NCBI GenBank assembly: GCA_016869215.1
Contig: VGEP01000001.1
Coordinates: 124,001-188,000 of the forward strand
Origin: Alphaproteobacteria bacterium
GTDB lineage: Bacteria > Pseudomonadota > Alphaproteobacteria > Rhizobiales > Xanthobacteraceae
Length of the DNA stretch: 64,000 bases
Reading direction: 5' to 3'
Shown: in pieces, positions 48,071 through 64,000 of the stretch
How the letters are laid out: each line of letters begins with the position of its first letter
How positions within the stretch are numbered: the first letter of the stretch is position 1
Translations under genes and position numbers: made by a program
Notes under the pieces: generated by a model
Seen by the model: the letters and a program-made list of their open reading frames with translations, nothing else
Told to the model about the DNA's origin: nothing
Databases searched by the model: none

Positions 48071-49282
48071 TCAAAACGCCGGATAGGCCGGATTGAGCCC
48101 GAGCCCCAGCTCCATCCGACCGAAATTCTCCGCCGGCACGTCCCAGTTCATCACCACGTGCGAGGCGATGGCGGTGGCGTCGCGCCAACAGCGCTGCACC
48201 GGGTTGCCGTCCATCAGGCCGCTCGAACCGCTGAGCTTCATCAGCTCGTCCAGCGCCTCGCGCAGGCTGCGGATCGCATAGGCGAAATCGCGCCGCAGCA
48301 GCACCCGCGTTTCCAGCGTCATGCCGGAATAGTCCTTGCGCGCGGTCGCAAGCGCCCTGCGCGCCAGCAGTTCGGCGGCGTCGATCTGCGCCGAAATCTC
48401 CGCGAGCTTCTGCTGCAGCGGCACGTACTCGCCGAGCGAGAGCTGCGTATAGGTGCGCTTGCGGCCCTTGGTCCATTCGACGAAATAAGAATAGCCACCG
48501 CGCGCCAACCCCAGCACCGGCCCGAGCAGCGCGTAGGAATGCACCGCGATGAACGGCGTGCGATAGATCGGATTGGTGTTGACCTGCGATCCCGGCGAGT
48601 GCGCGTCGCGCAGAGTCGAGAACGACACGCTGCGGTGCTCGGGCACGAACACGTTGTCGATCACGACGGTGTTGGAGCCGGTGCCGCGCAGGCCCGCGCT
48701 GTACCAGGTGTCTTCCTGCTTGCACTCGGACACCGGCACGAGATGCAACCGCATGTCGGGATGATCGTGCCCGTCGCGGAACACCAGCCCTCCGATCATG
48801 ATCCACTGCGAATGCCGCAGCCCGCTGCACCACGACCAGCGGCCGTTCAGCCGGTAGCCGCCGGGCGCGACTTCGGACTTGCCGGTCGGGGCCGCGGAAG
48901 TCGCGACGCAGGCCGCATTGTTGCGGCTCCAGACGTCGTGCTGCGCCTCGTCCGGGAAATGCGCCAGGATGCAAGCGTGGTCGCCGAGGTAATTCAGGCA
49001 CCACGCCGACGAGCCGCAGGTCGACTTGCCGAGTTCGATGGCGATGTCGAACATCGTCTCGTGATCGTGCTCGTAGCCGCCCCAGCGCTTGGGCTGCAGC
49101 GTGTGGATCAGGCCGGCTGCGATGTATTCGTCGACCGACTCCTGTGGAATATTGCGCTCGCGCTCGGCGCGCACCGCCCGCTCGCGCAGCCGCACTGCAA
49201 GCGCCTTGGCGCGGGAGACCAATTCGGTTGCGGCCGGAATCTTAACTGGTGCCGCAGGCGCGCGCGTGTCTACCACGGTCAT
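48071..49282 (-). CDS. HsaA/HpaB-like flavin-dependent monooxygenase (acyl-CoA dehydrogenase fold)
   Basis: 403 residues with the acyl-CoA dehydrogenase fold but features of FADH2-dependent class D monooxygenases such as HsaA: LQPKRWGGYEHD near 59-70, CGSSAWCLNYLGDHA near 88-102, GRWSWCSGLRHSQWIM near 149-164 and VFVPEHRSV near 211-219. Expected to hydroxylate an aromatic ring using reduced flavin from a separate reductase. A hairpin overlaps its ribosome site (49283-49310). Directly abuts the convergent isochorismatase gene. A paralogue is at 62270. Confidence 0.88.
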   Translation of the reverse strand: MTVVDTRAPAAPVKIPAATELVSRAKALAVRLRERAVRAERERNIPQESVDEYIAAGLIHTLQPKRWGGYEHDHETMFDIAIELGKSTCGSSAWCLNYLGDHACILAHFPDEAQHDVWSRNNAACVATSAAPTGKSEVAPGGYRLNGRWSWCSGLRHSQWIMIGGLVFRDGHDHPDMRLHLVPVSECKQEDTWYSAGLRGTGSNTVVIDNVFVPEHRSVSFSTLRDAHSPGSQVNTNPIYRTPFIAVHSYALLGPVLGLARGGYSYFVEWTKGRKRTYTQLSLGEYVPLQQKLAEISAQIDAAELLARRALATARKDYSGMTLETRVLLRRDFAYAIRSLREALDELMKLSGSSGLMDGNPVQRCWRDATAIASHVVMNWDVPAENFGRMELGLGLNPAYPAF

Positions 49283-52541: not shown

Positions 52542-52730
52542 GCGACAACGATACGCGGCGGGCTACAAATGTGGACGGCAATTGAAGCACGCCCGGCGGA
52601 AGGCGTCCAAGGGCGAAGCGCGCTGCGCCGCGGCATCGGCGATGGAACCGGCTTTGCGCTGCGGTAACACCGGTGGGATACTGCCGCGACCGCCGTGGCG
52701 GTCGTGTGGAATTCGGGATCGGGATTGGAA

Positions 52731-53957
52731 ATGTCCAAACCGCTTGCGGGAATTCGGGTCGTCGAACTGGCGAATTTCATCGCCGGACCGCTGGCGGGCA
52801 CGCTGCTTGCCGATATGGGCGCCGACGTCATCAAGATCGAGCCGCCGAACGGCGATATGGCGCGGCACACGCCGCCGATCCGCAACGGCGAGAGCACAAG
52901 CTTCGCGGCGCTCAACCGGAACAAGCGCAGCCTCGTGCTCGATCTGCGCAAACCGCAGGCCTGCGATATCGTCCGCAAGCTGGCGGCACAATCGGACGTC
53001 CTGCTCGAAGCTTACCGGCCCGGTGCGCTGGACAAGCTCGGGCTCGGGCCGGAGCAGATCAAGGCCGCCAATCCGAAGATCGTCTACACATCTGTGTCCG
53101 GATTCGGCCAGACCGGACCGGAGCGCCGGCGCGCGGGCGTGAACCTGATCATCGAGGCCTTCTCCGGCGCGCTGTCGGTCACCGGCGAGCCCGGCAAGAT
53201 GCCGATGCGGCCGGGCGTGCAGACCGCCGACGTGTTCGGCGCATTGTTTGCCACCTACGCAACGCTGGCGAGCCTGGTCGGCACCGGCCGCACCGGCGAG
53301 GGCCGCATCGCCGACGTATCGCTGGTCGAAGCTTCGATTGCGGCCGCGGCCTGGGAAGCGGCGGAATATCTCGAAACCGGCAACGTGCCCCAGCCGCTCG
53401 GCCACCGGCACCGCCTGAACGCGCCCTATCAACTGTTCGAGACGCGCGACCGCCGCCATATCGCCATCGGCGCGCCGAACGACATGTTGTTCGGAAAGCT
53501 CATGCAGACGCTCCGGCTTGAGCAGCACCTGAGCGATCCGCGCTTCGCAACCTATTCCAAGCGCAAGACCAACGAGGACGCGATCGTTGCGGTCGTCGAG
53601 GCCGCAATCCGCGAACGCGAATCCGGCGAACTGGAAGCCGCGCTGATGGAGGCCGGCGTGCCGTGCGCGCGCGTGAACAACTTCAAGGAGGTGTTCGAGC
53701 ACCCTCAAATCGTGGCGCGCGAGATGCTCAAGACCGTCGAGCATCCCAAGCTCGGACCGATGAAAGTCGCTCGCAATCCGGTCCTGCTCGATCACGATGG
53801 ACCGGAGATCGAGCGGCCCTCGCCCACACTCGGCGAGCATTCCGAAGTCATTCTGCGCGAGCTGGGCTACGGCGTCGCAGAGATTAGCGATCTTGCCGCG
53901 GCCGGCGTGACGCGGCTTGCGGCGCCGAAACCGCCCAACGCGACCGCCGCGGAATAG
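52731..53957 (+). CDS. CaiB/BaiF family CoA-transferase
   Basis: 408-residue class III CoA transferase. LAGIRVVELANFIAGPLAG near residues 5-23 is the N-terminal signature; the catalytic aspartate is the D in VQTADVFGALFATY near residue 165; later GHRHRLNAPYQLFET and HPQIVAREM segments fit. Moves CoA between carboxylic acids, activating a substrate for later CoA-dependent steps. ATG 52731 is preferred over the upstream 52695 because family homology starts there. Seven bases separate it from the CoA-lyase gene, so the pair is probably an activation-cleavage unit. Confidence 0.93.
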   Translation: MSKPLAGIRVVELANFIAGPLAGTLLADMGADVIKIEPPNGDMARHTPPIRNGESTSFAALNRNKRSLVLDLRKPQACDIVRKLAAQSDVLLEAYRPGALDKLGLGPEQIKAANPKIVYTSVSGFGQTGPERRRAGVNLIIEAFSGALSVTGEPGKMPMRPGVQTADVFGALFATYATLASLVGTGRTGEGRIADVSLVEASIAAAAWEAAEYLETGNVPQPLGHRHRLNAPYQLFETRDRRHIAIGAPNDMLFGKLMQTLRLEQHLSDPRFATYSKRKTNEDAIVAVVEAAIRERESGELEAALMEAGVPCARVNNFKEVFEHPQIVAREMLKTVEHPKLGPMKVARNPVLLDHDGPEIERPSPTLGEHSEVILRELGYGVAEISDLAAAGVTRLAAPKPPNATAAE

Positions 53958-53964
53958 CCTCGCC

Positions 53965-54846
53965 ATGCCCCTGCCCCGCAGCTTTCTTTACGTCCCCGCC
54001 AACCGCGACAAATTTCTCGAAAAGGCGCTCGGCCTGCCGGCGGATGCCTTCATCCTCGACTTGGAGGACTCGGTGCCGCTCGCGGAGAAGGCCAATGCGC
54101 GCCAAGGCGTGCGCGAGTACGCGCCCAAGATTTCCGGCGACCGCGCCTGGGTGCGCGTCAACGGCCTGGAGACCGGATTGGCCGAAGCCGATCTCGACGC
54201 CACGATCGGCGTCGGCGGCATGGCGGGCATCTTCCTGCCGAAGGTCGAGACGCGCGAAGAGGTGGTCCGCTGGGATAGCCTCATTGCCGGCGTGGAGAAG
54301 GCGCGTGGGCTCGCCTACGGCGCAACCAAGCTCGTGCTCGGCATCGAAAGCGCCAAGGGCGTGCTCAACGGCTACGACATGGCGCAGGGCGCCTCGCGCG
54401 TTGCCACTTTGGCTTTCGGCGGCGCGCAGGATGGCGACCTCAACACCGACCTCGGCTGCGCCTGGTCGTTCGACGGGCCGGAGATGATGCACGCGCGCTG
54501 CCACACGCTGCTGTGCGCGCGCGCGGCGGGCTTCGACACACCGCTCGACGGCGTCTATGCCAACGTGCGCGATCCCGAGGGCTTCGAAAAGGACACCGCG
54601 CTGTCGCGCCGGCTCGGCTACCGCGGGCGAAAGCTCATTCATCCGTCGCAGGTCGAGCCGTGCAACCGGCTCTACGCGCCGGGCAAGGCCGAACTCGACT
54701 ACTACTCGCGCGTCATCGAAGCGTTCGAGAAGGCCGTGGCCGCAGGCAGCGCATCGACCACGGTCGACGGCAAGATGATCGACGAAGCGATGGCCAAGGC
54801 CGCGCGGCGGGTCCTGGACGAAGCCAAGGTGCAGATCGCACGTTGA
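53965..54846 (+). CDS. CoA ester lyase (HpcH/CitE-like)
   Basis: 293-residue TIM-barrel lyase of the citrate-lyase beta/malyl-CoA lyase family. Seen: RSFLYVPANRDKFLEKAL near 5-22, metal-binding FILDLEDSVPL near 29-39, LPKVETREEV near 92-101, and LVLGIESAKGVLNGYD near 124-139 with the metal glutamate. Cleaves or condenses beta-hydroxyacyl-CoA (for example malyl- or citramalyl-CoA). Located seven bases after the CoA transferase, an arrangement also used for itaconate/citramalate-type or malyl-CoA pathways, so it may act on the CoA ester made there. Confidence 0.92.
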   Translation: MPLPRSFLYVPANRDKFLEKALGLPADAFILDLEDSVPLAEKANARQGVREYAPKISGDRAWVRVNGLETGLAEADLDATIGVGGMAGIFLPKVETREEVVRWDSLIAGVEKARGLAYGATKLVLGIESAKGVLNGYDMAQGASRVATLAFGGAQDGDLNTDLGCAWSFDGPEMMHARCHTLLCARAAGFDTPLDGVYANVRDPEGFEKDTALSRRLGYRGRKLIHPSQVEPCNRLYAPGKAELDYYSRVIEAFEKAVAAGSASTTVDGKMIDEAMAKAARRVLDEAKVQIAR

Positions 54847-54852
54847 TCTGCC

Positions 54853-55779
54853 TTACTTCGCCCGCCCCATCCGGTACGGCTTGAGGATCGCGTAAACCGT
54901 CTCCTGCGTCGGCGTCGGCACGCCAAACTTCTTGCCCAGCGCGACCACCCTTCCCGCGAGCCAGTCGAGCTCCAGGCGATTGCCGGAATCGAGATCGTTC
55001 GCCATCGACGCCTTCATGGTCGGCGGGAACGCCGCGACCGAGCGCTCCAGCTCGACGGGGAAATCCGCCGGGAAACCGACGCCGGCGGCGCGTCCGACCG
55101 CCATGGTCTCATTCATCAGCCGCCAGAAGAACGCGCACATGTCCGGATCGTCGCGAATCGCGCCGAGCGTCTGGCGCGTGCCCGCGGTCGCGCCCGACGT
55201 GCCCGAAAGCATCACAAATTTCTTCCAGATTTCGAGCAGCATGTTCTCCGCAACCGATATGTCGAGGCCTTCGGCCCTGTTCATGTCTTCGACATAGCGG
55301 AGCAGCAGCGCGTCGGACCTGCCGTCGACGCGGCCGCAGCGGATGCGCGCCATGGTGCCGGTGTGGCGGATGACGCCGGGCGCGGCGATCTTCGACACAA
55401 CCACGGTAATGCCGCCGACAATCGCATCCACGCCGAGGATTGGCGAAAGCCGCTCGACGCTGTCGACGCCGTTCTGCACCGTGATGACGCGGGTGTTCGG
55501 TCCGACCAGCGGCCGCGCCTGCTCGCCGGCGCTCTCGGTGTCCCACAGCTTGACCGCGAACAGCACCACGTCGACCGGGCCGATAGTCCTTGGGTCGTCG
55601 GTGACATTGACGTCCTTCAGGTGCAGGTCTCCGAGCGGGCTTTCAACCTTCAGCCCGTCGCGGCGGATGGCGTCGCGGTGCGCGCCGCGCGCGATGAAGA
55701 CGACATCGTGACCCGCGGCGGCCAGCCGCGCGCCGAAGTAGCCGCCGACCGCGCCCGCCGCCATCACCGCAATCCGCAT
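54853..55779 (-). CDS. 2-dehydropantoate 2-reductase-like (PanE/ApbA family)
   Basis: 308-residue NADPH-dependent ketopantoate reductase-family protein. MAAGAVGGYFGARLAAAG near 6-23 binds NADPH; ENMLLEIWKKFVMLSG near 175-190 contains the catalytic lysine; NDLDSGNRLELDWLAG near 255-270 holds the expected substrate residues. Paralogues like this in catabolic operons often reduce other 2-oxo acids, so pantothenate synthesis is not implied. Last gene of the leftward operon thiolase-fold / DUF35 / this, 12 bases after DUF35. Confidence 0.9.
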   Translation of the reverse strand: MRIAVMAAGAVGGYFGARLAAAGHDVVFIARGAHRDAIRRDGLKVESPLGDLHLKDVNVTDDPRTIGPVDVVLFAVKLWDTESAGEQARPLVGPNTRVITVQNGVDSVERLSPILGVDAIVGGITVVVSKIAAPGVIRHTGTMARIRCGRVDGRSDALLLRYVEDMNRAEGLDISVAENMLLEIWKKFVMLSGTSGATAGTRQTLGAIRDDPDMCAFFWRLMNETMAVGRAAGVGFPADFPVELERSVAAFPPTMKASMANDLDSGNRLELDWLAGRVVALGKKFGVPTPTQETVYAILKPYRMGRAK

Positions 55780-55791
55780 CGCCCCTTCCTC

Positions 55792-56097
55792 TTACTTCGC
55801 GCGCCCATACGGCGCCTCGCCTTCCTGGAACAACACAATCCGCGCTCCCGGCCCGGACTCGTCGAGCAGACCGACCGTCATACAGAGATCGTCCGTCACC
55901 CGCACGTTGGCGATCCGGCGCGGCTGCCAGTTCTCCTGGCCGAGCATGTGACGGATGACGGAGATTTCTTCCACCGTCGCCTCGTGCACGCGCTCATTCT
56001 CGAAGCGGGCGCCATGGCAATGCGGACAGAGAAGCCGTTCGGGAAACAGCGCCGCATTGCAGCCCGTGCAGCGCCAGATGGTCACGCCCGGCATCAT
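55792..56097 (-). CDS. DUF35/OB-fold zinc-ribbon protein (thiolase-partner type)
   Basis: 101 residues. A rubredoxin-like zinc ribbon with CxxC pairs in WRCTGC (near 8-13) and LLCPHCHG (near 22-29) precedes an OB-fold. DUF35 proteins bind thiolase-fold partners in acetyl-CoA acetyltransferase-like or aldolase complexes, such as the ChsH2-DUF35 / Ltp2 steroid side-chain aldolase. It overlaps the upstream thiolase-fold gene by four bases, strongly suggesting they form one complex. Confidence 0.9.
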   Translation of the reverse strand: MMPGVTIWRCTGCNAALFPERLLCPHCHGARFENERVHEATVEEISVIRHMLGQENWQPRRIANVRVTDDLCMTVGLLDESGPGARIVLFQEGEAPYGRAK

Positions 56098-57248
56098 TCG
56101 GCGCGCTCCAGAATCGCCGCCGCCGCCGTGCCGCCGTAACGGTACATGGTCATGCCGTAGCCGGTGACGGCCGCAAGCCGTGCATTCGCGACCTGCCGTT
56201 CGCCGGCGCGGTGCTGCAATTGCAGCACGGCTTCCGAAATCCCGTTCAGCCCGCCCGCCGGCCCGCCGGGCTGGCCCGCAGAAAGCATTCCGCCCCAGGT
56301 GTTCAGCGGGAGCTTTCGTTCGGCAACGGTCACGCGACAGAATCGCGCAAGGTCGTTGCCGGGTACCAGGCCAAGGTCGTTCGCCTGCGCCAGCACCATG
56401 GTCGGATAGTCGTCGTAAATGCTGGCCACGTTAATGTCGTCCGGGCCGACGCCCGCCTCGCGCCACAACTCGGCTGCGAACGTCGCAATGCCGGTCTGCA
56501 ATCCGTCGCCCGCCTGATTGTCGTAATTGAAGCTCGCGCGATGGGCGCGCACGCGCACACCGGGCCGTCCCTTCGGCGCGCGGTCGGGCCGCGCCACGAT
56601 CACGGCCTGCGCACCCGCCACCACCGGCACGCAGTCGTAGCGCGACAACGGGTCGGCGACGAGCGGAGCCGCAAGATATTCCTCCATGGTCAGCGGCGCG
56701 CGATAGACTGCGAAAGGATTCTTCGCGGCCCACGCGCGCTGCGCGATGGCGATGTGGCCGTAGTCGAACTTCTCCAGTCCGTACCTTTTCATCTGGCGGC
56801 TTGCGACCAGCGCATAGACGCCGTTCGGTCCGCCATGGCCGAGCGGGGCCAGATGCTTCTGCGTGACGGTGTTGAAGTTCGCCGCGACCTTGGCGTAGCC
56901 GGCGAGCCCGGTGGCGTCGCCGCCCAGCACCAGCACCGTCTCCGCCGCGCTCGCCTCGACCGCGCGCAGCGCGTGGCCGAGCATGTTCATCGCCGAGGAG
57001 CCGCCGTTGCTGTCCTGCATCAGCCAGCGCAGCGACAGGCCGAGCTTCCACGCAAGGTCGACGGCAGTGTCCGGCGCGAGCGACAATGAAGCCACCGCGA
57101 GGCCCTGAATGTCGCACGCATCCATCGTGGCGTCGGCAAGTGCCGCCGCAACCGCGTCGCGCATGAAGGTCTGCGTCGACTGGCCTGGCTCGGGCCGCCG
57201 CACGTAGGCCGATTGTCCGACTCCGACGATGGCGGCGTTTTGGAACAT
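56094..57248 (-). CDS. Thiolase-fold protein lacking thiolase catalytic residues (Ltp2/SCP2-like)
   Basis: 384-residue protein with the thiolase/SCP2-thiolase architecture. The nucleophilic Cys position (MQDSNGGSSAM, about 78-87) has no cysteine, the GHP-type histidine is Q326 in GGMLSAGQPGG, and the C-terminal Cys-containing loop reads TGYGMTMYRYGG (362-373). It therefore should not perform Claisen chemistry. Ltp2-type relatives with DUF35 partners are retro-aldolases that use tyrosines; here several tyrosines lie in the C-terminal loop. Starts ATG 57248, 70 bases from the divergent CocE operon. Predicted role: carbon-carbon cleavage of a CoA ester (inference). Confidence 0.88.
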   Translation of the reverse strand: MFQNAAIVGVGQSAYVRRPEPGQSTQTFMRDAVAAALADATMDACDIQGLAVASLSLAPDTAVDLAWKLGLSLRWLMQDSNGGSSAMNMLGHALRAVEASAAETVLVLGGDATGLAGYAKVAANFNTVTQKHLAPLGHGGPNGVYALVASRQMKRYGLEKFDYGHIAIAQRAWAAKNPFAVYRAPLTMEEYLAAPLVADPLSRYDCVPVVAGAQAVIVARPDRAPKGRPGVRVRAHRASFNYDNQAGDGLQTGIATFAAELWREAGVGPDDINVASIYDDYPTMVLAQANDLGLVPGNDLARFCRVTVAERKLPLNTWGGMLSAGQPGGPAGGLNGISEAVLQLQHRAGERQVANARLAAVTGYGMTMYRYGGTAAAAILERAE

Positions 57249-57318: not shown

Positions 57319-59052
57319 ATGAAGTCCGAAGTCCGCGACGGCATGAAGATCGATTGGGACGCGCCGGTCGAAATGGACGACGGCGTCATCCTGCGCGCCG
57401 ATGTGTTCCGCCCGGTCGCGGACGGCCGATATCCGGTGATCCTGAGCTACGGCCCCTACGCCAAGGGCCTGTCCATGCAGGAGGGCTACAAGAGCGCCTG
57501 GATGCGGATTACCAAGGCCGCGCCGGAGGTGCTGGAAGGCTCGTCGAACAAGTACCAGAACTGGGAACTGTTCGACCCTGAGAAATGGGTGCCGGACGGC
57601 TACGTGCTGGTGCGCGTGGATTCGCGCGGCGCGGGCCGCTCGCCGGGCTTTCTCGAAACCTGGTCGCCGCGCGAAGCGAAGGACATCGCGCTCTGCGTCG
57701 ACTGGGCCGGCGTGCAGCCCTGGTCGAACGGCAAGGTCGGGCTGCACGGCATTTCGTACTACTCAATGAACCAGTGGCAGGCGGCGCCGTTCAAGCCAAA
57801 ACACCTGGCGGCGCTGTGCATCTGGGAAGGCTCGTCGGACTATTACCGCGAGCTTTGCCGCCACGGCGGCATTTTGAGCGACTTTTATTCAAGCTGGTAT
57901 CCGCGCCAGGTGACCGCCGTGCAGCACGGCGTCGGCGACCGCGGCCCGAAGAGCGTCGTCACCGGCGAGCCGGTGGCGGGGCCTGCGACACTGTCCGAAG
58001 CCGAATTGAAAGCCAACCGCGCCGACTGCGACGGCGACGCGCTGCGCCACGTCCTGATAGACGACTACCATAGAGCGCGGCTGCCGAAGTTCGATGACAT
58101 CGACACTCCGCTGTTCTCGTCGGCCAACTGGGGCGGCATGGGCCTGCACACGCGCGGCAATTTCGAAGGCTTCATGCGCGCGGGCTCGAAGCGGAAATGG
58201 CTCGAAGTCCACGGCGACACGCATTTCACATTGTTCTACGCAAAATACGGCCAGGATCTGCAGCGCAAGTTCCTCGACCATTTCCTGAAGGGCGCCGACA
58301 ACGGCTGGGACAATCAGCCAAGGGTGCTGGTGAACGTGCGCCATCCCGGCGAAAAATTCGTGCCGCGCGCGGAGAACGAATGGCCGCTCGCGCGCACGCA
58401 ATGGACCAAATTTTACCTGCATCCGAACCGCGAACTCGATCTCACGCCCGCCGTCGACGGAGCCACGCTGATCTACGAGACCCAGAGCGACGGCGTGACG
58501 TTTTCGACCGAGCCGCTTGCGCAGGAGATGGAAATCACCGGACCGGTCGCAGCCAAACTGTTCGTGTCGTCGGACACCGCCGACGCCGACCTGTTCCTCG
58601 TGCTGCGGGTGTTCGATCCGCTCGGAAAGGAAGTGGTGTTCGTCGGATCGAACGATCCGCGCGTGCCGGTGGGCCTCGGCTGGCTTCGCGCCTCGCATCG
58701 CAAGCTCGATCCGAAGGAGAGCAAGCCGTGGCGGCCCTGGCACACTCACGACGAGTTGTGGCCACTGAAGCCCGGCGAGCCTGTGGAACTCGACGTCGAA
58801 ATATGGCCGACCTCCATCGTGGTGCCGAAGGGTTATCGCCTCGCGCTGAGCGTTCGCGGCAAGGACTACGAATACGACGGCTCGGACGCGGCGCTGCCGC
58901 ACGCGCCCTATCCGATGAAGGGCGTCGGGCCGTTCACCCACACCAATCCGAAGGATCGCCCGCCGGAGATTTTCGGCGGCAAAAACACGCTGCACTTCGG
59001 CGGGCACTTTGCGCCTTATCTGCTTCTCCCCGTCATTCCAGGACAGATTTGA
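57319..59052 (+). CDS. CocE/NonD-family alpha/beta hydrolase
   Basis: 577-residue esterase/acylase. Hydrolase core about 20-330 with nucleophile Ser in GLHGISYYSMNQW near residue 150, probable Asp in the DTPLFSSANWGG region near 260 and His in VHGDTHFTLFY near 302; C-terminal jelly-roll about 370-575. CocE cleaves cocaine and other esters; most relatives have unknown substrates. First gene of a tightly packed operon (next gene one base away). Close paralogue at 63526, with shared N-terminal pattern IRDGM/VRDGM-IDWD-EMDDGV. Start ATG 57319. Confidence 0.92.
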   Translation: MKSEVRDGMKIDWDAPVEMDDGVILRADVFRPVADGRYPVILSYGPYAKGLSMQEGYKSAWMRITKAAPEVLEGSSNKYQNWELFDPEKWVPDGYVLVRVDSRGAGRSPGFLETWSPREAKDIALCVDWAGVQPWSNGKVGLHGISYYSMNQWQAAPFKPKHLAALCIWEGSSDYYRELCRHGGILSDFYSSWYPRQVTAVQHGVGDRGPKSVVTGEPVAGPATLSEAELKANRADCDGDALRHVLIDDYHRARLPKFDDIDTPLFSSANWGGMGLHTRGNFEGFMRAGSKRKWLEVHGDTHFTLFYAKYGQDLQRKFLDHFLKGADNGWDNQPRVLVNVRHPGEKFVPRAENEWPLARTQWTKFYLHPNRELDLTPAVDGATLIYETQSDGVTFSTEPLAQEMEITGPVAAKLFVSSDTADADLFLVLRVFDPLGKEVVFVGSNDPRVPVGLGWLRASHRKLDPKESKPWRPWHTHDELWPLKPGEPVELDVEIWPTSIVVPKGYRLALSVRGKDYEYDGSDAALPHAPYPMKGVGPFTHTNPKDRPPEIFGGKNTLHFGGHFAPYLLLPVIPGQI

Positions 59053-59053
59053 A

Positions 59054-60064
59054 ATGGTACGCGCCGCCATCGTCGGACTGGGCCGCTGGGGCCGGTCGCT
59101 GGTCAATGCCGTGCACGGTAAGACCGACGCAATCCGTTTCACCGCCGCCTACACGCGCACCCGCGCCAGCGCCGAGGACTTCTGCCGCGAGAAGGGCATT
59201 CCAATGCTGGCGCGGTTCGAGGACGTGCTGGCGAGCCGCGACATCGACGCCGTGGTGCTGGCGACGCCACACTCCAGGCACGCAGAACAGGTGATGGCCG
59301 CAGCCGCGGCGGGCAAGCACATCCACGTCGAGAAGCCGCTCACCCTCGACCGGCCGAGCGCGGAGGCGGCGGTCGCGGCGGCCAGGCGCGCCGGCATCGT
59401 GCTCGCCGTCGGCTTCAATCGGCGTTTTCACCCCTGCGTCGTCGAGGTCCGCAACCGATTGCACGATGGGCGGCTCGGCGAGGTCATGTCGATCGTCGGC
59501 CAGCACACCACCTCGACGGCGCAGTTCGTGCCGTTCGACAACTGGCGCGCCCAGCCCGACGAGGCGCCGGGCGGCGCCATCACCGCGGTCGGCGTGCATT
59601 CCATCGACCACATGATCGAGTTCGCAGGCAAAGTCCGCGACGTGCTGGTGAGCACCGGCCGCTACATCAAGGGCGGACCTTCGGACGACACCACCAACAT
59701 CATGCTGCGGTTCGAGAGCGGCGCGACGGGATTGCTGTTCTGCTCGGTCGCGACCGCGACCACCTTCAGCCTGAGCGTGTTCGGCACCAAGGGGCTTGCG
59801 GAAATTTCGCGGCCGAACCTGCAGCACTTCCGCTTCGTGCCGGTCTCGACCGTCGCGCCGACCGGTCCGGTGACCGCGCCGCCGGACGAGATCGTCGAAC
59901 ATCCGACCTTCGACATGCTCAACGCCGAGCTGATCGAATTCGCCCGCTGCATCGAGGCGAAGCGGCCCTACCCGGTCGCCATCGACGAGGTGCTGCACGG
60001 CATGGCGGTGTTCGATGCGGTCGTGAAATCGGCCAAGAGCGGACAAGTCGAGCGCGTCGATTGA
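59054..60064 (+). CDS. Gfo/Idh/MocA-family oxidoreductase
   Basis: 336-residue NAD(P)-dependent dehydrogenase. Rossmann motif AIVGLGRWGRSLV near 5-17, HVEKPLTLDRPSAE near 95-108 with the signature lysine of the EKP motif, and VGVHSIDHMIEF near 184-195 with the catalytic His/Asp region. Substrates are sugars, inositols or, in LigC, 4-carboxy-2-hydroxymuconate semialdehyde; LigC belongs to this superfamily, so a link with the LigA/LigB-like proteins is possible but unproven. TGA/ATG spacing with neighbours is one base on the left and an overlap of one on the right. Confidence 0.93.
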   Translation: MVRAAIVGLGRWGRSLVNAVHGKTDAIRFTAAYTRTRASAEDFCREKGIPMLARFEDVLASRDIDAVVLATPHSRHAEQVMAAAAAGKHIHVEKPLTLDRPSAEAAVAAARRAGIVLAVGFNRRFHPCVVEVRNRLHDGRLGEVMSIVGQHTTSTAQFVPFDNWRAQPDEAPGGAITAVGVHSIDHMIEFAGKVRDVLVSTGRYIKGGPSDDTTNIMLRFESGATGLLFCSVATATTFSLSVFGTKGLAEISRPNLQHFRFVPVSTVAPTGPVTAPPDEIVEHPTFDMLNAELIEFARCIEAKRPYPVAIDEVLHGMAVFDAVVKSAKSGQVERVD

Positions 60065-61005: not shown

Positions 61006-62253
61006 ATGGCACAGCATCGCGCGCTCATCGTCGGTGGATCGGTCGGCGGATTATTCGCGGCGAACCTGCTGCGCGCCAGCGGTTGGGACGCGGTCGTGTT
61101 CGAGCGCAACCCGGAAGAGCTGACCGGCCGAGGCGCCGGCATCAGCACGCATCCGCAGTTGCACGACATCATGCGGCGGCTTGGCATCGCATTCGACGAT
61201 TCCATGGGCATCACCGTGCGGGACGTGGTGTTCCTCGACCGCGACGGCCGCGCCTATGTCGAACGCGACACGCACCGGGTGATGAGCTCGTGGGGCCGCA
61301 TCTTCCGCTCGCTACGCGATATGGTGCCGGAGGGAAGCTACCGGCTCGGCATGTCGCTCACGCGCGTCGAGCAGGATGCAGGCGGCGTCACTGCAATCTT
61401 CGCCGACGGCACGCGCGAGCGCGGCGATCTTCTCGTGGGCGCCGACGGCAGCCGCTCGACGGTGCGCGAGCAGTTCCTGCCCGGACATCAACCGGAGTAC
61501 GCGGGCTATGTCGCCTGGCGCGCCATGCTCGACGAGCGCGACATTCCGCCCGCGATCCACGCCGAGCTGTTCCACCGCTACACTTATTGCTTGCCGCCGG
61601 GCGAATTGTTCCTCGCCTACCCGGTCCCGGGCCGCAACAACGAAACGCAAGCCGGCCAGCGCGCCTATAACATCGTCTGGTACCGGCCGACGACGCCCGA
61701 GCGACTCGCCGACTTCTGCACCGATGCGGCGGGCAAATGCCACGGCACCGCCATCGCGCCCCCGCTGCTGCGCCCCGACGTCATCGCCTGGGCCAAGGCG
61801 CAGGCGCGCGCGCTGGTCGCGCCGCAGGTCGCGGAGATTTTCGAGCGCGATCCGCGGCCGTTCTTCCAGGCCATTTTCGATCTGGACGCGCCGCAGATCG
61901 CGTTCGGTCGCGTGGCGCTGCTCGGCGACGCAGCCTTCGTCGCGCGGCCGCATCCGGGCGCGGGCACGACCAAGGCCGCGCTCGACGCCGCCAAGCTTGC
62001 GGACTCGATCGCGGCCCACGGCCTGGAGCGTGGGCTTACCGCCTATCAGCGCGAGCAGAAGGCATTCGGCAGCGGCATCGTCGCGCTGGGCCGCCGCGAG
62101 GGCGCGTTCCTGACCGACTGGCTGAAACCGCCGACGGAACGCACATATCCCTGGCAGACCTGGGACATCGAGGAACTGATGCACTCGCACAATTCCCGCA
62201 GCGCCGAGGTCCGCAAGGTCCTCGACGCGAGCCGTAACCTGGGTGCAGCATGA
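61006..62253 (+). CDS. FAD-dependent monooxygenase (PHBH-like, class A)
   Basis: 415-residue aromatic hydroxylase-type flavoprotein. FAD motif VGGSVGGLFAANLLRASG near 9-26, a VGADGSRSTVREQ segment near 145-157 for NAD(P)H/FAD contact, and LLGDAAFVARPHPGAG near 305-320 for ribityl binding. Uses NAD(P)H and O2 to hydroxylate activated rings without a separate reductase. In the middle of the CocE operon; substrate likely the hydrolysis product of an ester or amide (inference). Confidence 0.93.
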   Translation: MAQHRALIVGGSVGGLFAANLLRASGWDAVVFERNPEELTGRGAGISTHPQLHDIMRRLGIAFDDSMGITVRDVVFLDRDGRAYVERDTHRVMSSWGRIFRSLRDMVPEGSYRLGMSLTRVEQDAGGVTAIFADGTRERGDLLVGADGSRSTVREQFLPGHQPEYAGYVAWRAMLDERDIPPAIHAELFHRYTYCLPPGELFLAYPVPGRNNETQAGQRAYNIVWYRPTTPERLADFCTDAAGKCHGTAIAPPLLRPDVIAWAKAQARALVAPQVAEIFERDPRPFFQAIFDLDAPQIAFGRVALLGDAAFVARPHPGAGTTKAALDAAKLADSIAAHGLERGLTAYQREQKAFGSGIVALGRREGAFLTDWLKPPTERTYPWQTWDIEELMHSHNSRSAEVRKVLDASRNLGAA

Positions 62254-62269
62254 GCGCGGAGGTGCCCCT

Positions 62270-63469
62270 ATGAGCCCGAGCCGACTGGCCGTCGTCAGCG
62301 ACGATGCCGCAACCGCCGTCCTCGAACGCGCCCGTGCGCTGGTTCCCGTTCTGGCGCAGCGCTCCCCCGACACCGAACGCAATCGCCGCGTTCCGGACGA
62401 AACCATCGCGGACTTCCACCGCGCGGGACTGTTCCGCGTGCTGCAGCCCAAACGCTTTGGCGGGCTTGAACTCGATTTCAAGGTCTTCGCCTCGATCACG
62501 CGCGAACTGGCGCGCGGCTGCGGCTCCAGCGCCTGGGTCTATGCCGTCGTCGAGGAGCTGTTCTGGACGCTCGCGACCTTCCCCGAGGAAGCGCAGAAGG
62601 AGGTCTGGAACGAGGACGACACCGCGCTGGCCTGCGCCGCACTCATGCCGTCCGGCTCCGGCGTGCGCGACGGCGACGGCTGGCGGCTCAACGGCGACTG
62701 GCATTTCTTGAGCGGATCCGACCACGCCTCCTGGGTGTTCCTGACCGCGAACTGCGACAACGGAAGCGGCGGCCGGGAAATCCGGAACTTCTTCGTCCGC
62801 GCCCGCGAGCTGCAATTCGTCGACGACTGGAACGTGATGGGCCTCGTCGGCACCGGCTCGAAGAGCGTCAAGGTCGACAACGTGTTCGTACCCGCACACC
62901 GCTCGGTGCGCTACGATGACATCATCGCGGGCACCGCACCGGGCAGCCGCGTCCATCCGCAATATCCGATGTGCCGCGCGCCGCGCCGCTACGTGACCGC
63001 GTTCTCGATCTCACCCGTTCTGGTGGGCCTCGCCAACCGCGCACTCGACATCACCACCGGCATGGTGCGCAGCAAGCTCAATTCCGGCTCGGTCCCCGAA
63101 GACTTCGAGATCGTGCAGCAGAAGATTGCCGAGAGCGCGGCCGATATCGCGACCGCCAACATGATTCTCGATACGTCGCTGCAGCGATGCGTCGACACGC
63201 TGAACGAGAACATGCCGATCGGCGCAGACGCTGTCGCCGAAAACCGCCTGATGGCATCCTACATGATGCGGCTGTCGAAGCAGGCGGTGGAGCGGCTGTG
63301 CTCGCTCAGCGGCTCGCGCTGGGCGTTCAACAGCCACCCGATGCAGATCGTATTGCGCGACATGCTGGTCGGCGCGACCCACCGCAGTTACAACTGGGAG
63401 GCGATGGCGCGCGAATACAGCCAGAGCATCGGCATCGCCCGCGGGGGAGCAGCGCCGGTCGGGCCTTGA
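62270..63469 (+). CDS. HsaA/HpaB-like flavin-dependent monooxygenase (acyl-CoA dehydrogenase fold)
   Basis: 399-residue paralogue of the gene at 48071-49282. Shared landmarks: LQPKRFGGLELDFKV near 59-73, RGCGSSAWVYAVVEE near 82-96, DWHFLSGSDHASWVF near 143-157 and DNVFVPAHRSVRYDD near 202-216. Expected two-component monooxygenase using FADH2/FMNH2 from a partner reductase not found here. ATG 62270 has GGAGG seven bases upstream; the upstream 62243 extension overlaps the monooxygenase stop. Coupled to that gene, so the operon carries two mechanistically different flavin hydroxylases. Confidence 0.9.
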   Translation: MSPSRLAVVSDDAATAVLERARALVPVLAQRSPDTERNRRVPDETIADFHRAGLFRVLQPKRFGGLELDFKVFASITRELARGCGSSAWVYAVVEELFWTLATFPEEAQKEVWNEDDTALACAALMPSGSGVRDGDGWRLNGDWHFLSGSDHASWVFLTANCDNGSGGREIRNFFVRARELQFVDDWNVMGLVGTGSKSVKVDNVFVPAHRSVRYDDIIAGTAPGSRVHPQYPMCRAPRRYVTAFSISPVLVGLANRALDITTGMVRSKLNSGSVPEDFEIVQQKIAESAADIATANMILDTSLQRCVDTLNENMPIGADAVAENRLMASYMMRLSKQAVERLCSLSGSRWAFNSHPMQIVLRDMLVGATHRSYNWEAMAREYSQSIGIARGGAAPVGP

Positions 63470-63525: not shown

Positions 63526-64000
63526 ATGAGCTACCGCGAAGTCAGCGAAATCCGCGACGGCATGCGGATCGACTGGGACCTGCCGATCGAGATGGACGAC
63601 GGCGTGGTACTGCGCTGCGACGTCTATCGGCCGGTCAAGCCCGGCCGCTATCCGGTTCTCATCACGTACGGGCCCTACGGCAAGTGGCTGCATTTCGCCG
63701 ACCTCTACAAGGAGCAGTGGGAGCGGATGTGCGAAATCCATCCCGACGTTCCGACCGGCTCCACCAACAAGTATCAGCAGTGGGAGGTCGTCGACCCCGA
63801 GAAGTGGGTGCCGGACGGCTATGCCTGCGTGCGCGTCGACAGCCGCGGCGCGGGCCGCTCGCCAGGCGTCATCGACATCTGGTCGCTGCGCGAGGCGCAG
63901 GACTTCGCGATCTGCGTCGACTGGGCGGGCGTCCAGCCGTGGTCGAACGGCAAGGTCGGCATCAACGGCATTTCCTACTACGCCGAGAACGCCTGGAAGT
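63526..64000 (+). CDS. CocE/NonD-family alpha/beta hydrolase, truncated by window edge
   Basis: N-terminal 158 residues only; the frame is open at the right edge. ATG 63526 follows GGGGAGGACGGA. The sequence closely follows the paralogue at 57319: IRDGMRIDWD, EMDDGVVLR, EKWVPDGYACVRVDSRGAGRSPG, and the nucleophile segment INGISYYAENAW. It is 56 bases downstream of the HsaA-like gene and thus closes the visible part of the same operon. Confidence 0.92.
   Translation, partial: MSYREVSEIRDGMRIDWDLPIEMDDGVVLRCDVYRPVKPGRYPVLITYGPYGKWLHFADLYKEQWERMCEIHPDVPTGSTNKYQQWEVVDPEKWVPDGYACVRVDSRGAGRSPGVIDIWSLREAQDFAICVDWAGVQPWSNGKVGINGISYYAENAWK

Follow-up and report, generated by a model that had tools for sequence, protein, structure and literature searches.

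Two overlapping genes on the minus strand of the window, the whole 64,000-nt stretch of DNA that was analysed (Alphaproteobacteria bacterium, Xanthobacteraceae; GCA_016869215.1, contig VGEP01000001.1, positions 124,001-188,000), probably encode a DUF35-dependent, thiolase-fold retro-aldolase that acts on a beta-hydroxyacyl-CoA ester and belongs to a group with its own signature, Y-D-D-Y plus Gln. We put the probability of this reading at roughly 0.7. It draws on the sequence, the fold class, the partner gene, the clade and the conservation of residues, from which we infer the reaction, the residue roles and the complex. An earlier description based on the letters of the DNA (the sequence-only reading) had proposed a CoA-ester aldolase for a non-steroid substrate. 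That proposal appears right in kind: the protein is DUF35-coupled and without thiolase residues, is neither Ltp2 nor Sal and, judged from its sequence, is most likely a retro-aldolase.

The thiolase-like gene (56094..57248, minus strand) encodes a protein of 384 aa, which we propose to be a CoA-ester retro-aldolase with Tyr278/Asp280 and Gln326 on the basis of its translation, the Pfam Thiolase_C_1 domain, PDB sequence matches (9myr, 4u4e, 6ok1), the motif table, the trees and the fold search. The coordinates given earlier were correct, and the strand was corrected to minus because the plus-strand frame contains a stop. The protein scored 88 bits against Thiolase_C_1 (cut-off 28), and its 18 NCBIfam matches, which carry thiolase, acetyltransferase, lipid-transfer and, in one case, beta-oxidation names, all fell below their cut-offs, the best at 192 bits against a cut-off of 421. 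The partner gene (55792..56097, minus strand) encodes a standalone DUF35/zf-ChsH2 protein of 101 aa, identified from its translation and a Pfam zf-ChsH2 match of 28.7 bits; this was the only domain found, with a C4 zinc ribbon (C-x2-C-x10-C-x2-C) and no MaoC fusion. Its ATG overlaps the stop of the thiolase-like gene by four bases, as had been read from the sequence. Ten aligned orthologues of the thiolase-like protein are 66-85% identical to it, with Y278, D280 and Q326 invariant, the dN/dS of the gene is 0.13-0.24 (versus five orthologues), and the DUF35 partner is conserved too, which together indicate that the gene pattern is more than chance. The window genome (5.15 Mb) has five Thiolase_C_1 matches at E 1e-10, of which two carry HDCF, one YDAF, one YDDF and one, the window protein, YDDY; neither the Ltp2-type YDHF nor the Sal-type YDCY occurs among these five.

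Alignment with solved relatives placed Gly83 at the position of the thiolase nucleophile, Gln326 at that of the GHP histidine, and Y278-D279-D280-Y281 at the HDCF motif of SCP2-type thiolases. The segment DSNGGSSAM, reported as the counterpart of the nucleophilic Cys segment, was found at residues 79-87, and the Gln reported in place of the GHP histidine is Q326 within SAGQPGG. The claim of a C-terminal Cys loop stood only in part: the string TGYGMTMYRYGG is present at residues 362-373, but according to PMC12329534 SCP2-type thiolases carry their second cysteine within the HDCF motif, at the position that is Asp280 here, and not in the loop. The columns of residues 362-366 hold no Cys in the 16 HDCF rows of a 96-row alignment either. 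The nucleophilic Cys (present in 16/16 HDCF rows), the HDCF motif and the GHP histidine are all absent from the window protein, having been lost jointly, with Gly83, YDDY and Gln326 in their respective places. A Cys/His pair at shifted positions was considered and rejected: alignment against Ltp2, Sal and classical thiolases revealed none, and the sole cysteines of the protein (P0001) are residues 45, 206 and 304. Cys206, found in 31/31 rows of the window clade, also occurs in 13/16 thiolase rows and is therefore no substitute nucleophile. The window protein is a real, conserved, DUF35-coupled thiolase-fold protein that is free of the thiolase cysteines.

The same alignments showed what the protein has retained. 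Tyr278 stands at the position of the catalytic bases Tyr302 of Sal and Tyr294 of Ltp2, and Q326 at that of Gln352 of Sal; the catalytic Tyr base of Y-D-x-[YF], a broad feature of DUF35-dependent CoA-ester aldolases, is therefore present as Tyr278. The pocket differs from that of Sal, since the position of Gln347 is occupied by Met321 in 25/31 window-clade rows (Gln in 6) and that of the oxyanion residue Gln161 by Pro141 in 31/31. The position of Arg216 is Pro195 in the window protein; these equivalences were derived from the PDB sequence-match alignment, and one of the three YDCY rows departs from Sal at Gln161 and Arg216 too.

The predicted model of the window protein had a mean pLDDT of 60.2 and a pTM of 0.66, with residues 278-281 and Gln326 in segments below 50, and its weakness is explained by an alignment with only 11 similar sequences. 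The first Foldseek match was the Sal-Shy(DUF35) complex 9myr (E 2.6e-20, TM 0.66, rmsd 6.5), and the Ltp2-ChsH2 complex 6ok1 ranked 7. The model is sufficient for the assignment of a predicted thiolase fold. In VIA-align, an archaeal thiolase came first (Z 29.1), followed by TbSLP (27.9), 6ok1 (26.8) and 9myr (25.9). As thiolases and TbSLP score level with or above the aldolases there, the fold alone does not separate an aldolase from a thiolase.

For the classification of the active sites, 137 full-length matches were reduced to 97 non-identical sequences, four partial or odd ones (L043, L045, L081, L100) were left out, and three PDB rows, which are alignment fragments and not whole chains, were added, giving 96 rows. 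As most rows entered the set through their similarity to the window protein, and many are near-copies (14 from one family), the counts are patterns and not a census: by residues 278/280/326/83, 61 rows are Tyr/Asp/Gln/Gly, plus one with Ser at 83, 16 are His/Cys/His/Cys, 11 Tyr/Ala-or-Ser/His/Gly, 3 Tyr/His/Tyr/Gly, 3 Tyr/Cys/Gln/Gly, and one, IpfD, Tyr/Ala/Tyr/Gly. Asp280 occurs in 62/62 YDD rows and in 0/34 others, and Asn241 has the identical distribution. In the maximum-likelihood tree of the 96 sequences, YDDY with Gln formed one group (58/58 rows, support 100/99), adjoined by a YDDF group of 4 rows (joint support 100/98), and in a quicker tree made without the motif columns YDDY was still a single group (99% SH-aLRT). 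YDDY is divided into subclade a (20 rows, including Ruegeria pomeroyi), subclade b (7 rows) and subclade c, in which the window protein sits in its own 31 rows (100/100), outside the IadG subclade, with its genus, Rhodococcus, Nonomuraea, Caballeronia, Burkholderia, L129 and a small-genome family (f4). The joins of Sal as sister (89/54) and of subclades b and c (90/47) are weak, and IpfD, L128, L109, L105 and L104 are long branches. One YDDF relative, in Sphingobium baderi (L092:2789-8831), lies in a run of acyl-CoA dehydrogenase, enoyl-CoA hydratase, thiolase-like, Zn-ribbon/OB protein and CaiB genes, an order that fits oxidation, hydration and aldol cleavage. In the literature searched, we found neither a description of a YDD-type thiolase-fold aldolase nor an activity assay of any YDD-type protein.

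Matches to the window protein were found in 9/11 genomes of its genus (E 1e-60), 33/397 of the order (1e-60), 5/385 of the class (1e-70), 6/398 of the phylum (1e-60) and 1/300 (1e-80) of an order to which another genome of the phylum belongs. Among the weaker matches, many belong to the IadG subclade and are not orthologues. The DUF35 gene follows the thiolase-like gene in every window-clade neighbourhood read that extends past the gene end (L134 ends inside the gene). An adjacent DUF35 frame with C-x2-C-x10-C-x2-C, starting -30 to +80 bases from the thiolase-like stop, was present at 35/36 window-clade loci; at the remaining locus (L038) tblastn located DUF35 further downstream. Three of the 36 are apparently duplicates of contigs already in the set. 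The exact 4-base overlap is shared by 20/36.

Around the window pair, recurrent neighbours were scored in ten close-relative neighbourhoods (L035, L037-L039, L041-L044, L137, L138), some of whose contigs end early. A CaiB-type family III CoA-transferase (52695..53957, plus strand; Pfam CoA_transf_3, 400.9 bits), likely the CoA-activating step, is a neighbour in 10/10, and an HpcH/HpaI (CitE-like) lyase (53917..54846, plus strand; Pfam HpcH_HpaI, 149.9 bits; NCBIfam citE, 205.5 bits, below cut-off) in 6/10. A divergently transcribed CocE/NonD-type hydrolase (57319..59052, plus strand; TIGR00976, 243.8 bits, above cut-off) and a Gfo/Idh/MocA dehydrogenase (59009..60064, plus strand; Pfam) each occur in 8/10. 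A second CocE/NonD-like frame at 63526-64000 is cut by the window end, and two copies were also seen in L035, L037 and L039. In the window genus, the substrate is likely an acid activated by CoA-transferase. The Pfam scan of the neighbours revealed no MaoC hydratase next to the window pair. The ketopantoate-reductase-like gene noted after DUF35 is indeed there and co-directional (54853..55779, minus strand; Pfam ApbA and ApbA_C above cut-off), but not as a conserved member of the unit: it was found in 0/48 related neighbourhoods (60-bit threshold, some stretches short) and 0/10 close relatives, and was rejected as part of the system. The statement that the operon is not linked to steroid genes needs a qualification. 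The window contains two flavin monooxygenases of the HsaA/HpaB type (48071-49282, minus strand, and 62243-63469, plus strand), for both of which the best NCBIfam model is HsaA, of steroid ring degradation, but both are below its curated cut-off (321 and 238 bits versus 450).

The wider clade shows other arrangements. In family f4, whose genomes are 0.9-1.6 Mb (GC 0.33-0.37 in the stretches read), the thiolase-like orthologue is present in 14/14 genomes, and the order Gfo/Idh, Usp-like, thiolase-like, DUF35, TPP enzyme, CMD was found in 10/10 stretches (L046-L055), with extra genes inserted in L046, L047, L051 and L053. No CoA-activating gene was recognised near the f4 thiolase-like gene in L052, the most fully scanned stretch. 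The f4 cluster adjoins an amidohydrolase and a polyamine-type ABC transporter. In subclade b, AtuA, DUF4387 and CaiB stand beside the pair in four of the seven neighbourhoods (L057, L089 (bait), L131, L132), L056 has AtuA and DUF4387 but not CaiB, and none of the three is seen in L133 or on the 6-kb contig L130.

The enzyme that removes the side chain in bacterial auxin breakdown seems to be another member of the window protein's clade. The gene order iadC-D-E-F-G-H-I-J has been described in Variovorax paradoxus (PMC12633357, a 2025 bioRxiv preprint). According to the preprint, deletion of iadF, G, H or I led to accumulation of C10H9NO4, proposed to be dioxindole-3-acetic acid; iadF, G and H together effected reductive loss of the acetyl side chain, giving C8H7NO2; and IadG was assigned as 'acetyl-CoA acetyltransferase (ketothiolase)' from annotation. 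The order reductase, Rieske alpha, Rieske beta, AMP ligase, thiolase-like, DUF35-SDR, cyclase, SDR was complete in L062, L142, L143 and the R. pomeroyi bait L090, and since it matches the described order these four are taken as iad loci. Their thiolase-like rows fall in the YDDY group, including that of the intact order L142 from a genome outside the window's class (G1079). In the 15 subclade a neighbourhoods read, including the bait, a DUF35-SDR gene lay downstream in 15/15, a cyclase was present in 13/15 and Rieske alpha in 7/15 within the stretch read. What links IadG to the YDDY group is synteny, seen in R. pomeroyi and at three further loci. L141, a relative on a V. paradoxus plasmid, was rejected as IadG, as it carries YDAF and is not in an iad-type locus.

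By our chemical reasoning, dioxindole-3-acetic acid is a tertiary beta-hydroxy acid, so its CoA ester is no ketothiolase substrate, and retro-aldol cleavage of it can give isatin and acetyl-CoA. Reduction of isatin gives dioxindole, C8H7NO2. IadG would accordingly turn dioxindole-acetyl-CoA into isatin and acetyl-CoA, a reading in keeping with its lack of the Cys and the His and with the presence of a DUF35 domain in the IadH homologue. No aldolase reading of IadG was found in our literature search, for which most subscription journals were beyond reach.

The window protein might itself be a functional relative of IadG, a YDDY aldolase acting on an indole- or aryl-acetic-type CoA ester. We consider this unlikely as a specific assignment; it is a special case of the preferred reading, so the odds of the two overlap. 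Six relatives at about 50% identity bear on it: Rhodococcus erythropolis R138, Nonomuraea, Caballeronia Sq4a and Burkholderia sit with anthranilate-type or indole-type pathway parts, namely an IadI-like cyclase in three (R138, Nonomuraea, Burkholderia), a 3-hydroxyanthranilate dioxygenase in three (R138, Caballeronia Sq4a, Nonomuraea) and a DUF6537/POR protein in one (Burkholderia), whereas Caballeronia SBC2 (L087) and L129 show no such parts. In Burkholderia multivorans, the DUF6537/POR protein (pyruvate-ferredoxin-oxidoreductase-like; L085:15943-17433) lies downstream of the pair, with the IadI-like cyclase near +9.3 kb. In window positions 40001-64000, however, the baits for IadH-type DUF35-SDR, IadI, Rieske and CoA ligase gave no match, nor did the window neighbourhood show any of the anthranilate-type or indole-type parts found with these relatives, and the best IadI match of the window genome is 34% identical with a stop inside. 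Moreover, in two genomes of the window genus the window orthologue coexists with a gene of the IadG subclade, and this speaks for a different substrate.

Another reading, to which we give still lower odds, is a retro-Claisen or acyl-transfer enzyme like PhlC or BbsB, DUF35-dependent, that would need no Cys nucleophile, would use water or some other acceptor, and would act on a beta-keto or beta-diketone CoA ester. PhlC, BbsB and the archaeal acetoacetyl-CoA thiolase likewise pair with DUF35, according to PMC12329534, and are structural neighbours of the window protein. The nearby CoA-transferase and CitE-like lyase would also allow a beta-keto substrate. To our knowledge, however, PhlC- and BbsB-like DUF35-dependent enzymes keep the nucleophilic Cys, where the window protein has Gly83, and Tyr278 replaces the His of HDCF. 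The metabolite C10H9NO4 of the IadG locus likewise fits a tertiary alcohol and not a beta-keto acid (PMC12633357). A catalytically dead lipid carrier or scaffold is very improbable: all thiolase residues are gone and several matching NCBIfam models are named 'lipid-transfer protein', but the substituted residues are invariant and not drifting, dN/dS is low (0.13-0.24 versus five orthologues), and the gene is kept in 14/14 genomes of only 0.9-1.6 Mb.

The retro-aldolase reading can be phrased as a mechanism by analogy with Sal of Comamonas testosteroni, for which Rolfe et al. 2025 (PMC12329534) describe Tyr302 and Cys304 of YDCY as the catalytic residues. In Sal, Gln352 takes the place of the second catalytic Tyr344 of Ltp2, an enzyme that also uses Tyr294 of YDHF. 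In the window protein, Tyr278, assisted by Asp280, would take the proton of the beta-hydroxyl, the C-alpha/C-beta bond would break to yield a ketone or aldehyde and an acyl-CoA enolate, and Asp280, now proton-bearing, would protonate the enolate. Gln326 and the backbone amides near Gly83 and Gly363 may position and stabilise the reactants, and the DUF35 protein would complete the substrate pocket. The role of Asp280 as an acid is conjecture, as the reported Sal Cys304 variants (Ala, Ser and His) had no detectable activity and Asp was not among them.

By our reading, the YDD group may consist of retro-aldolases with a Tyr/Asp pair. Taken together, the data could describe a third catalytic design (Tyr/Asp, Y-D-D-[YF] plus Gln) beside the Tyr/Tyr of Ltp2 and the Tyr/Cys of Sal, a joint proposal on which we regard the odds as even. 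It would include IadG as a dioxindole-3-acetyl-CoA aldolase yielding isatin and acetyl-CoA, with the DUF35-SDR protein IadH reducing isatin to dioxindole, and the window subclade as a further branch, kept in every f4 genome examined and lying beside a TPP enzyme. In the same proposal, DUF35 would serve as an exchangeable link between the aldolase and the preceding or following step: a hydratase (steroids), an SDR (IadH) or a CoA ligase (Nonomuraea). The last was seen in Nonomuraea gerenzanensis (L088:10131-12029), where the frame immediately following the thiolase-like gene is an in-frame fusion of a DUF35 zinc ribbon with an AMP-binding acyl-CoA ligase. In databases, members of the group go under the names of thiolase or lipid-transfer protein, a label on which at least one pathway paper relies. 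Should Y-D-D-[YF]/Gln prove to be a signature of aldolases, the whole clade could be re-annotated from sequence, side-chain removal in auxin breakdown by root bacteria would gain an enzyme that makes chemical sense, and a pathway that a small-genome lineage has kept would become testable. One motif position and its partner are where Sal, Ltp2 and the YDD group differ, which is a pointer for enzymologists.

Among known systems, Ltp2-ChsH2(DUF35), the steroid C3 side-chain aldolase (PDB 6ok1), shares with the window pair the thiolase fold, the DUF35 partner, the Tyr of Y-D-x-F and Gly in place of Cys. It was the known system named in the sequence-only reading and is rejected here as the closest model: its motif is YDHF and not YDDY, its second catalytic Tyr344 corresponds to Gln326, a Sal-type feature at the histidine position, YDDY forms a group of its own, and identity is about 27%. 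ChsH2 is also a fusion of DUF35 to a MaoC-type hydratase domain, in contrast to the 101-aa standalone partner in the window. The ibuprofen genes ipfDE, a known non-steroid DUF35 aldolase (pIBU218; PMC9195938), likewise encode a thiolase-fold and OB-fold/DUF35 pair acting on a non-steroid CoA ester. The putative IpfD (L097:13639-14826, minus strand), identified from gene position, carries YDAF with Tyr at the Gln326 position, which is that of the second Tyr of Ltp2; it is nearer to Ltp2 than the window protein is and therefore represents a different aldolase type. Sal-Shy(DUF35), the bile-acid side-chain aldolase of C. testosteroni (PDB 9myr; PMC12329534), shares the thiolase fold, the DUF35 partner, the Tyr base in Y-D-x-Y, Gln for the GHP His and Gly for the nucleophilic Cys. 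It differs in its YDCY motif, with Cys304 at the position of Asp280, in a C3H1 (Cys3His1) zinc finger and MaoC fusion as opposed to the C4 ribbon and standalone DUF35 of the window, and in its separate tree group; within the aligned fragment, identity is about 31%. IadG of the iad indole-3-acetate locus (PMC12633357), as judged by synteny, has YDDY and GQ, falls in the same supported group and has DUF35 encoded downstream; it belongs to another subclade than the window protein (34-43% identity), and its DUF35 is fused to an SDR (IadH) in R. pomeroyi, whereas that of the window stands alone.
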